NCBI GenBank assembly: GCA_949738935.1
Contig: CATJCJ010000341.1
Coordinates: 16,445-80,444, forward strand
From: an uncultured Eubacteriales bacterium
GTDB lineage: Bacteria; Bacillota; Clostridia; Lachnospirales; CAG-274
Direction of reading: 5' to 3'
Length of the DNA: 64,000 nucleotides
Part shown: piece after piece, positions 48,054-61,409 of the stretch
Layout: each line of letters begins with the position of its first letter
How positions within the stretch are numbered: the first letter of the stretch is position 1
Position numbers and translations under genes: made by a program
The notes under the pieces: model-generated
What the model was told of the DNA's origin: nothing
Seen by the model: only the letters and a program-made list of their open reading frames with translations
The model's database searches: none

Positions 48054-48881
48054 TCAGTACAATTTCTCAATAACATCATCATCAATGGAAAACCCATTTT
48101 CTTTTGCCGGAAATACTCCTTTAGAAACCTCATCTTTATAGTTTTTAAAAGCCTCTTTCATAATTTCACCAACGTTAGCGTATTTTTTAACAAACTTTGG
48201 TGTAAAACCCGAATACATAGCAACCATATCCTGATAAACAAGAACTTGTCCGTCACAGCCCGCGCCGGCACCAATTCCAATAGTAGGAATAGAGAGTTTA
48301 TTTGTAATAACCTCAGCGAGTTTTGCCGGAACACATTCCATAACAACGGCAAAAGCCCCCGCCTCCTGCAAAGACACAGCATCATCAATAAGCTTTTGAG
48401 CGACTTCCAAAGATTTTCCCTGAACTTTAAATCCCCCAAAAGCGTTAATTGACTGAGGAGTAAGTCCAATATGACCCATAACAGGTATGGAAGCCTCGAC
48501 AATAGCTTTTATATGAGGAGCGAAATCCTTTCCGCCCTCAATTTTAACGGCGTGAGCATGTCCTTCTTTAATAAGTCTGCCGGCATTTACAACAGCGTCA
48601 TAAACTGATGTTTGATAAGACATAAAAGGCATATCCCCGACAATCAAAGCGTTCTCACAGCCTCTTGACACAGCGGCGGTATGATGAATCATATCCTCCA
48701 TTGTGACAGAAAGAGTATTTTCATATCCAAGACAAACCATGCCAAGAGAATCTCCAACCAAAATAGCGTTAATGCCCGCCTCGTCAATAAGTTTAGCCGT
48801 AGAATAGTCATAAGCTGTAAGCATAGATAATTTCTCATTTTTTTCTTTCGCCTGAGCAAAAGTAACAACCGTATTTTTCAT
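48054..48881 (-). CDS. panB: 3-methyl-2-oxobutanoate hydroxymethyltransferase
   Basis: [45 protein letters not shown]; start MKNTVVTF at 48881. Confidence 0.97.
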
Positions 48882-48926
48882 AATAAACCTCCGCGAAATT
48901 TCCAAAAAATATAAGTTATAAGTCAA

Positions 48927-58215: not shown

Positions 58216-58947
58216 CTAATAAACATTCTTTTCAAATATCTTTTCAAACTCTTCTTCAGAAAGTTCTCTTGTTTCCCCTTCAGCGATACTTTCATCAAGC
58301 GTAAGTCCGCCAAATCCAACTCTTTTTAAGTATAAAACTTTTTTCCCAACAGCGGCAAACATTTTTTTAATCTGATGAAATTTTCCCTCAGCAATATCAA
58401 CAAAAACATCTGTTTCGTTTTCCCTCACAGCAAATATATCAAGTTTAGCACTTTTGCAAACCTCATTATTTTCCAGCTCAACACCTTTTATAAAAATCTC
58501 AATATCTTTCTCAGAAACAATCCCTGACACAGTTGAAAAATATCTCTTCCAAATATGTTTTTTAGGTGAAAGTGTATTATGAGCGAATTCTCCGTCATTA
58601 GTTAAAATAAGAAGTCCGACAGTATTTTTATCAAGCCTTCCAACAGGAAAAACATGAAACTTTTTATATTTTTCAGGTAAAATATCAATTACTGTTTTTT
58701 CCGACTTATCCTCCGTAGCAGAAATAACTCCCGATGGTTTATTCATAACAAGATAAATATATTTTTTATAGATAATATTTTCCCCATCAACACAAATTAA
58801 ATTTTTATCTGTGTCAATTTTAACATCACTTTTTACAACAACTTTTCCATCAACTGTAACTTTACCAAATTTAACAAGTTTTTTTATATCTTTTCTACTT
58901 CCAACCCCGCAATTTGAAAGCATTTTGTCAACTCTTATAACAGCCAT
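58216..58947 (-). CDS. RsuA/RluB family pseudouridine synthase
   Basis: S4-like N-terminus MAVIRVDKMLSNCGVGSRKDIKKLVKFGKVTVDG; VGRLDKNTVGLLILTNDGEFAH. Confidence 0.93.
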   Translation of the reverse strand: MAVIRVDKMLSNCGVGSRKDIKKLVKFGKVTVDGKVVVKSDVKIDTDKNLICVDGENIIYKKYIYLVMNKPSGVISATEDKSEKTVIDILPEKYKKFHVFPVGRLDKNTVGLLILTNDGEFAHNTLSPKKHIWKRYFSTVSGIVSEKDIEIFIKGVELENNEVCKSAKLDIFAVRENETDVFVDIAEGKFHQIKKMFAAVGKKVLYLKRVGFGGLTLDESIAEGETRELSEEEFEKIFEKNVY

Positions 58948-59119
58948 AATCCACCTCCAAAAAAGTAAAACTTCATACATCTCTGAAATTCCTTTCCCTT
59001 ATATAGTACACTTAAATTCATTTACTTTCAAGTACAAAAACTTTTATAGAACCCACATTATTTATATATTTTCTCAAATTTTTAACTATAATAATCTTTC
59101 CATATCAGTATCTTTATGT

Positions 59120-59125
59120 TATAAT
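59120..59125 (+). promoter_or_regulatory. Candidate -10 element of the ktr leader
   Basis: TATAAT at 59120-59125 with a weak TTTCCA 17 nt upstream. Confidence 0.35.
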
Positions 59126-59185
59126 GTATATGATATTTACAAATTACAACAATTCCAGTTGAATTTCATAAAAATATATAAGCCT

Positions 59186-59252
59186 CCGTCGGATACGTAC
59201 CTGTGCGAATGGCATAAGATGATTACATCAGTTGCGCTCAGCGTAAAGACGG
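59186..59252 (+). ncRNA. Candidate structured leader RNA upstream of ktrB-like gene
   Basis: Nested pairing: CCGTC/GACGG (59186-59190/59248-59252), TACG/CGTA (59194-59197/59242-59245), GTGCGA/TTGCGC (59203-59208/59232-59237, two GU), GATG-atta-CATC (59218-59229). Confidence 0.45.
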
Positions 59253-59321
59253 TATTGATATCACTTATATAAAAATACTATACGATAACATTTTATAATT
59301 AACGTAAGGAGAAAATTTCCT

Positions 59322-60713
59322 ATGATAAGAAAAATTTTTATCAAATTAAAGCCTACACAAATTATTGTAATGGGTTTTTTAATCTTAAATCTAATCGGAG
59401 CGATTCTCTTGGTAATGCCATTTTCCTGCGCCGATGGAAAAGAAACAACTTTTACAGACGCTCTTTTCACCTCAACCTCAGCGTTATGTGTCACAGGATT
59501 ATCTGTTGTAAATACATTGGAGCATTGGACAGTCATAGGGAAATGTATCATATTATTTTTAATTCAAATCGGCGGAATAGGATTTATGACGATTGTAACA
59601 ACTATACTTGTTATACTTGGCAAAAAAATCACTCTCAAAGAACGAGTTGTTATGCAAGAATCTTTCAATCTTGATACCTTTCAAGGAATGGTTTCTTTCG
59701 CTAAAAAAATAATTTTAGGAACATTTATATTTGAGGGAATCGGAGCTATTTTACTCTCCATAAAATTTATACCAAAATATGGGTTTATATCAGGACTTTT
59801 TCGAGGAATTTTTCACTCTGTATCCGCTTTTTGTAACGCCGGTTTTGATATTTTAGGAAACAACAGTATTATATCATATTCCAATGACTGGTATATAAAC
59901 ATAATACTTTCATTACTTATAATAATTGGAGGACTTGGTTTCATAGTTTGGGTTGATATAGTGAAAGTAATAAAAAATTGTAAAGGTAAAAAACTTGCCT
60001 TAAGAAAAAAATTTGTTAATTTATCTCTTCACAGCAAATTAGTCCTGTCAATATCATTAACATTAATTTTATTCGGCTGGATATATATTTTTTTAAGCGA
60101 ATATGACAATCCCTTAACTTTAGGAAATATGAATTTCGGTGAAAAAATACTAGCCTCATTTTTTCAATCTGTAACACTGAGAACAGCCGGTTTTGCCGCG
60201 ATTGAGCAGGGAAATTTAACATACTCATCAAAACTTATAGGGATTATACTTATGATGATAGGAGGTTCCTCCGGAAGTACAGCTGGAGGAATGAAAACGG
60301 TAACAATAGGTGTAATAATAATAGCTATACTTTCCGTTATAAGAGGAAATGACTCTCTTTCAATCTTCAAAAAAAGTATATCGTTTAACACTCTTCAAAA
60401 AGCTCTTACGGTTGTTGTTATGATGATAGGCTTTTTACTTATACTAACCATAACCCTATCATTTACGGAAAAAAATATTAACTATAATTATGAGTTTATG
60501 GATTTATTTTATGAGTCAGCCTCAGCATTGGGAACAGTTGGGCTTTCACTCGGAATAACGCCATACCTTTCATTGTTTGGAAAAATAGCAATATGTATCG
60601 GAATGTTTATCGGAAGACTTGGCCCTGTAACAATCGCCGTAGCTCTCGCCTCAAAAAAGAAGTCAGGAAAAAATCTTTTACACTATCCGGAAGAGAGAAT
60701 ATTTGTTGGATAA
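59322..60713 (+). CDS. ktrB: KtrB/TrkH family potassium uptake protein
   Basis: TSTSALCVTGLSVVNT, FCNAGFDIL, TLRTAGFAAI, GGSSGSTAGGMKTVT. Confidence 0.93.
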   Translation: MIRKIFIKLKPTQIIVMGFLILNLIGAILLVMPFSCADGKETTFTDALFTSTSALCVTGLSVVNTLEHWTVIGKCIILFLIQIGGIGFMTIVTTILVILGKKITLKERVVMQESFNLDTFQGMVSFAKKIILGTFIFEGIGAILLSIKFIPKYGFISGLFRGIFHSVSAFCNAGFDILGNNSIISYSNDWYINIILSLLIIIGGLGFIVWVDIVKVIKNCKGKKLALRKKFVNLSLHSKLVLSISLTLILFGWIYIFLSEYDNPLTLGNMNFGEKILASFFQSVTLRTAGFAAIEQGNLTYSSKLIGIILMMIGGSSGSTAGGMKTVTIGVIIIAILSVIRGNDSLSIFKKSISFNTLQKALTVVVMMIGFLLILTITLSFTEKNINYNYEFMDLFYESASALGTVGLSLGITPYLSLFGKIAICIGMFIGRLGPVTIAVALASKKKSGKNLLHYPEERIFVG

Positions 60714-60758: not shown

Positions 60759-61409
60759 ATGTCTAAAAACGAACAATTTGCTGTATTAGGATTAGGAAGA
60801 TTTGGTCAAAGCATAGCGACAACTCTTGTTGATAACGGATGCGATGTTTTGTGTGTTGATAAAAGCATAGAAGCTGTAAACGAAATGAGCAAATACGCCA
60901 GCAATGTAACACGGGCTGATGTTTCAGATGTTCACGCAATGGCGGCACTTGGCTTAAACAATTTTGACGTTGTAATAATAGCAATAGGAGAAAATATGGA
61001 AGCGGCAATTATGGCAACGCTAATAGCAAAAGAAATGGGGGTAAAAACAGTAATAACAAAAGCTAAAAGTGACATTCAAAAATCTATACTTCAAAAAGTC
61101 GGAGCTGATAGAGTTGTTCTTCCTGAAAGAGATATGGGAATAAGAATCGCGACAAATTTAATAACTACAAATATAATCGATTTTATAAACCTTTCCGATA
61201 AATTTGCCATAGCGGAAATTGAACCCAGAAAGGAATGGGTAGGTGTTTCTTTAAGAAAATCCAATATCAGAGCGGATTACGGCTTAAACATAGTAGCGAT
61301 AAAAAGACATAATGATATACTAGTTTCCCCAAAAGCGGAGGAAATTATAGACGCTCACGATATTTTAGTAGTAATAGGCACAAGCGGAGATATTCAAAAT
61401 ATAAAATAA
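60759..61409 (+). CDS. ktrA: KtrA/TrkA family potassium channel regulator (RCK)
   Basis: FAVLGLGRFGQSIATTLVDNGCDVLCVDKS; RCK N and C domains. Confidence 0.95.
   Translation: MSKNEQFAVLGLGRFGQSIATTLVDNGCDVLCVDKSIEAVNEMSKYASNVTRADVSDVHAMAALGLNNFDVVIIAIGENMEAAIMATLIAKEMGVKTVITKAKSDIQKSILQKVGADRVVLPERDMGIRIATNLITTNIIDFINLSDKFAIAEIEPRKEWVGVSLRKSNIRADYGLNIVAIKRHNDILVSPKAEEIIDAHDILVVIGTSGDIQNIK

Follow-up and report, generated by a model that had tools for sequence, protein, structure and literature searches.

The GC-richer island in the ktrB leader, at approximately 59174-59271 of the analysed window (the whole 64,000-nucleotide stretch, taken from contig C341 of a 4.8-Mb draft genome, G000), is very probably a copy of an order-wide, MITE-like, non-autonomous mobile repeat family. 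Relatives of the island occur at dispersed loci, two helices of their common core covary, and the island is absent from the ktrB leaders of three congeners. The window copy appears to be partly eroded. The coordinates of the features are listed in Table 1.

Table 1. Features of the ktrBA locus and of the repeat copy in its leader (window coordinates).
Feature	Position	Strand	Remarks
Predicted sigma-70-type ktrB promoter, TTTCCA-17-TATAAT	59097..59125	+	Top promoter-like site in scan, 10/12
Left copy of 9-bp direct repeat ATAAAAATA, candidate target-site duplication	59168..59176	+	Exact repeat at 59168 and 59269
Core of the putatively mobile structured repeat	59174..59252 (R1), 59174-59248 (R3)	+	R1 84.4 bits, R2 66.7 bits, R3 51.2 bits (each model includes this copy)
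Linker, mini-hairpin TCC-GTC-GGA after invariant AAGCCTCC	59185..59193	+	UCC/GGA predicted in copies of other families
Helix P_c, TACGT/GCGTA	59194-59198 with 59241-59245	+	91% of cells paired in 71 distinct copies; 3/5 pairs changed on both sides
Helix P_a, GTGCGA/TTGCGC	59203-59208 with 59232-59237	+	82% of cells paired; 6/6 pairs changed on both sides
Apical hairpin P_b, GATG-ATTA-CATC	59218-59221 with 59226-59229	+	Apical hairpin also in other copies
Remnant of 3' hairpin H3	59248..59268	+	GACGGT retained, partner ACCGTC gone
Right copy of 9-bp direct repeat ATAAAAATA	59269..59277	+	Exact repeat
ktrB, K+ uptake transporter subunit	59322..60713	+	463-aa ORF; leader contains the putative insertion
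ktrA, regulatory subunit (presumed from sequence knowledge)	60759..61409	+	216-aa ORF, GLGRFG nucleotide-binding start; same operon, 3' of ktrB

The orthologues of ktrB in the three congeners (G001, G002, and G003) are 84, 75, and 75% identical to it. The TTTCCA-17-TATAAT site is likely the start of the leader transcript, as predicted from its sequence; in G002, the ktrB promoter has 25 of 37 bases identical to those in the window. No terminator was found in a scan of the ktrB leader. The divergent neighbour (58216-58980, minus strand) is RluB/RsuA-type pseudouridine synthase-like, and its start is probably an internal ATG at about 58947.

An earlier note on this DNA described the island as a coaxial series of four helices between a TATAAT and the ktrB start, forming a candidate structured RNA, possibly of a class that it did not recognise. 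All four helices, the TATAAT upstream, and the start codon downstream are present. Judged as one sequence, the fold is unremarkable against shuffles: the predicted energy of the 75-nt core is -21.0 kcal/mol (z = -1.28; 19/200 shuffles equally good), the 201-nt leader gives z = -0.81, and a fold as stable as that of the core or more so is reached by 13 of 282 GC-matched 75-nt windows from this DNA. These z-scores would suit a chance hairpin within a GC-richer patch. That reading has next to no probability, being refuted by the existence of homologous, covarying copies. The island stands above chance because of the comparison, namely its covariance-model relatives and their covarying inner helices.

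A BLAST search of 48 genomes of the family with the whole leader as the query returned mostly AT-rich noise and led to two weak matches in G001, both of which are full relatives, with AATATATAAGCCTCC followed by the same helices in different letters. One lies beyond the 3' end of a gene for a dockerin-type surface protein, and the other before a surface-protein gene adjoining an ABC transporter; other relatives were found behind tuf and queH genes. Covariance models were built from three sequences (R1), 22 copies (R2), and 72 copies (R3). All of them included the window copy, which R3 recovers in the window with an E value of 3e-11; the best matches reached E values down to 1e-18. R1 detected 10 copies in G001, 2 in G003, and 30 in G004, the number in G001 varying from 9 to 13 with model and threshold. 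With R2, 51 of 392 genomes of the order were positive at E <= 0.05; tightening the threshold to E < 1e-3 leaves about 36. The matches extend to two other families of the order, often with many copies per genome. R3 revealed 59 copies in G004, which represents another genus of the same family, and 42 in G197, from another family of the order. In a phylum-wide sample, which doubles as a specificity control, only 2 of 399 genomes were R3-positive, both within the order, and none of the approximately 390 sampled genomes outside the order contained a copy. G000 itself contains, besides the window copy, another R3 match (contig C479) and a further BLAST relative (C375). A weak R3 match at 48878-48915 of the window (plus strand, E 0.99, 9.8 bits), containing AUAAUAAACCUCCGCG, is possibly a family remnant and probably due to chance. 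No matches were found in plasmids. In viral contigs, the core 16-mer GGATACGTACCTGTGC matched four times (L055-L058), and the three longer exact patterns did not match. Twelve matches to records named 'Bacteriophage sp.' were not counted as evidence of phage carriage, being unannotated fecal contigs; the five that were inspected are marked UNVERIFIED. Near a copy of the element in G018, an RT-5 RNA (Rfam RF03026) scored above the gathering score (L151 2874-2976, minus strand).

The full element measures approximately 100-150 bp, lacks an ORF, and consists of a 5' hairpin H1, a CUCCG linker, the core (P_c, P_a, and P_b), and a 3' hairpin H3. In 71 distinct copies, the covariation score of P_c and P_a was 0.320 versus 0.186 +/- 0.008 in shuffles, with 0 of 500 shuffles as high; the alignment leans toward the structure because it was fitted to that derived from three of the copies, and the margin is large. 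Standard pairs occupy 86.3% of the cells of these helices versus 78.8 +/- 0.5 in shuffles, and both sides have changed in 61 cells versus 18.6. When the partners were slid by 1-3 columns, the score was at most 0.155. The counterparts of P_b elsewhere have other sequences in a shifted register (GTCGC..GCGAC, GCCGC..GCGGC, GTTGC..GCAAC). Fifteen full-length copies from families f6 and f24 were realigned using MAFFT and folded using RNAalifold with no structure given. Three hairpins, H1, the core, and H3, were obtained, in which 13 pairs had changed on both sides, 12 of them in H1 and H3; the linker mini-hairpin UCC/GGA was also predicted and is hardly variable in these copies. A simple stem search gave H1 scores >= 10 in 34 of 41 copies (3/205 shuffles) and H3 scores >= 8 in 34 of 41 (14/205 shuffles). 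The conserved unpaired bases are CUCCG (80-96% per base), the A before P_c, the AC after P_c, and the UCG before the 3' strand of P_c. G-U and A-C cells occur in similar numbers (31 versus 25 in 20 distinct copies; 74 versus 90 in 71 copies), so these counts do not separate an RNA function from single-stranded DNA recognition in transposition or from palindrome arm correction. Solo palindromes of about 38 bp of the TTATAGTAAACGACAAATAAATTTGTCGTTTACTATAA type, with no core, were observed at L123, L124, L125, L127, and L129 (G000, G001, and G002) and are apparently lone terminal hairpins. The G339 copies L202, L213, and L216 carry tandem H3-like and H1-like hairpins, suggesting nested or tandem insertion.

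The comparison with other copies also corrects the outer part of the fold. In the window copy, CCGTC (59186-59190) pairs with GACGG (59248-59252). In the two closest copies (G001), the 5' half is CCGGT or CCAGC, and GACGG pairs with a downstream ACCGTC. Judged from these sequences, the outermost helix of the earlier note is specific to the window copy and draws on the GACGG left over from H3. The inner helices P_c and P_a covary in the family, of which CCGTC/GACGG is not a part. The structure itself is real, conserved, covarying, and not in Rfam 15. It has no link to ktr genes or potassium.

No match was found in Rfam 15 at the gathering score over the whole window; on the relevant strand and stretch of the leader there was none even at E <= 10, and the element itself had no match in 20 further loci. 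The identity of the island with ydaO, Na+, M-box, or any other Rfam class was rejected on this basis, in line with the earlier note, which had not recognised the ydaO consensus. Whether known or new, a riboswitch or ion-sensing RNA dedicated to ktr genes would explain a stable fold in the leader of a K+ transporter gene, and the ydaO/c-di-AMP, Na+ (DUF1646), and M-box riboswitches are similarly structured leader RNAs ahead of ion transport genes. They differ in that their covariance models do not match the element, which is not linked to ktr in its relatives. The ktrB leaders of all three congeners lack the island, the outcome that the earlier note had named as a refutation and that here speaks, within the genus, against a ktr riboswitch. 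The relatives of the island occupy unrelated loci. A ktr-specific RNA of this kind is extremely improbable; the island is not a potassium-gene riboswitch because it is one copy of a dispersed structured repeat family.

The window copy retains the linker and every one of the 11 P_c/P_a pairs, H1 is absent, and the second arm of H3 has been lost; the place of H3, occupied by GACGGT..ACCGTC-TATATAG in the G001 copies, reads GACGGTATTGATATCACTTAT in the window. The loss of H1 and of half of H3 weighs against the mobile-repeat interpretation. The inverted ends of the copy comprise only 8 bp (TATATAAG/CTTATATA). The distance from TATAAT to the ATG is 196 nt in the window versus 61 nt in G002. The G001 ktrB leader contains TTCATAAAAATACT, ending 42 nt before the ATG. 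Its window counterpart ATAAAAATACT likewise ends 42 nt from the ATG, and a second ATAAAAATA lies on the far side of the island. The shared 14-mer was absent from all 20,000 Markov shuffles made from the G001 leader. Removal of the island and one repeat yields the G001 sequence at that point, as insertion predicts, and the G001 ktrB leader looks like an empty site. This comparison is across species rather than with another strain, and the 9-bp repeat is AT-rich and could be due to chance, both of which count against the mobile-repeat interpretation.

The size of the element (approximately 100-150 bp), its lack of an ORF, and its copy numbers (59 in G004 and 42 in G197) are those of MITEs. The G004 copies have termini TTATAGTAAACGACA..TGTCGTTTACTATAA forming perfect or near-perfect inverted repeats, which are also clear in related copies. 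The listed G004 copies share 89-99% identity with the query copy; many G004 copies are situated at contig ends. Most of the copies in G004 have no target duplication beyond TA or TATA, which is a further point against the mobile-repeat interpretation. In one f6 genus, the queH-adjacent copy was present in 1 of 28 loci. A broken IS630-family transposase gene pair was found in G004 (contig C435; L290 1418-2455), starting 92 nt after the family's 14-nt end TATAGTAAACGACA; the right end is missing. The gene pair encodes HTH_32/HTH_33 and DDE_3 domains, and NF033545 matched both halves below the model's own cut-off. No close homologue was detected in the other 12 genomes tested, including G000 and other copy-rich genomes, or in phage records; plasmids contained only distant IS630 relatives (<60% identity). 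A complete autonomous partner with the same ends was not found. IS630-type mobilisation in the G004 lineage is thus suggested rather than demonstrated, because the evidence consists of one broken gene with a matching end and no close homologue was present elsewhere, which also counts against the mobile-repeat interpretation. No transposase was recognised by eye in the ORFs immediately preceding four copies (L192, L194, L199, and L218); of these ORFs, one encodes EF-Tu (tuf, L194) and one is sugar kinase-like, and copies L199 and L218 lack H1.

The position of the copies relative to genes bears on another explanation. According to a simple test, an intrinsic terminator lies just before the element in 27 of 41 order-wide copies (mostly f6). 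In 31 of 37 cases, the gene preceding the element is encoded on the same strand. No terminal inverted repeat was seen in the terminator-associated f6 copies. In f6 (L187-L226), H1 often begins inside the terminator T run, a pattern that would fit insertion directed to terminators. Bacterial class C group II introns insert just downstream of intrinsic terminators, in gene orientation. The f6 copies are similar in position and orientation, and this is an analogy of targeting only; unlike these introns, the element has no reverse transcriptase, has no Rfam group II match, and is far too small. The absence of terminal repeats behind terminators could also mean a host function, that is, a functional RNA or regulatory family (for example, terminator-associated 3' UTR structures, as in the use of REP/BIME) that spread long ago and was kept, the ktrB copy being one site. 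The core structure and the unpaired CUCCG, GGA, AC, and UCG are conserved in at least three families, which speaks for such a function. This explanation is nevertheless unlikely, given the high and variable copy number, the near-identical copies within single genomes, the lineage-specific presence, and the lack of any shared class of neighbour genes among those seen.

For a mobile, non-autonomous repeat, the following mechanism is proposed. A DDE transposase supplied in trans would act on the ends of the element and move it, possibly one of the IS630 type where the termini are TTATAGTAAACGAC. In this species, the ktrBA leader would have received a copy downstream of the conserved promoter and ahead of the ribosome binding site; because of this location, the copy would presumably be transcribed within the 5' UTR. 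Any effect on ktrBA would be an incidental by-product of a longer, structured leader rather than ligand sensing. Alternatively, the element may have been taken over in this species as a cis-regulator of ktrBA, its hairpin acting on translation or transcript stability. The location between the promoter and the Shine-Dalgarno sequence and the 11 intact core pairs agree with such a role; a recent insertion would be intact too, the leader has no terminator, and the copy has lost H1 and half of H3, which makes this takeover very unlikely.

No earlier description of the repeat family was found in the open-licence PMC literature. Among known repeats, RUP of S. pneumoniae is approximately 107 bp long and has been proposed to be mobilised in trans by IS630-Spn1 (PMC3049150). 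As far as the architecture can be compared by description, the two are alike in being small, ORF-less, intergenic, tightly structured, and numerous, with proposed IS630-type mobilisation (PMC3049150). RUP differs in its host group: it is described from S. pneumoniae, is less frequent in S. mitis, and is very rare in other streptococci (PMC3049150), whereas the core described here is common to at least three families of one order. The pneumococcal SPRITE repeats share the enrichment at 3' gene ends, a terminator-like hairpin with a T-rich tail, and AAAA/TTTT ends (PMC3049150); they consist of one 18-bp duplex and a U tract. In contrast, the present element combines a conserved linker and covarying core with a hairpin on either side. 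BOX (PMC3049150) and other bacterial MITEs (PMC10969869) are also modular, structured when transcribed, and located in AT-rich intergenic sites, sometimes in leaders, and structured MITE transcripts with occasional effects on neighbours have been reviewed (PMC10969869). The present family differs from them in having a conserved core common to lineages with different end sequences.

Judged by sequence, this covarying core, common to lineages with different ends, appears to be the unusual feature of the family. On a reading that is less likely than not, the core would be a functional module, consisting either of structured RNA or of folded single-stranded DNA bound by a mobility protein, riding on different ends (IS630-like versus terminator-targeting). 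If so, the family would represent a mobile cassette of structured RNA or DNA that is selected for a function of its own, not dead transposon filler. The retention of the core among copies with different ends raises the question of why the structure is kept and whether the RNA or the single-stranded DNA is active. A supposed riboswitch has provided evidence for an undescribed repeat family, present in up to dozens of copies per genome in one order of Clostridia. Riboswitches or sRNAs can be wrongly inferred from its copies, which also appear to break assemblies, as many are found at contig ends, and may reshape the 5' and 3' ends of transcripts.
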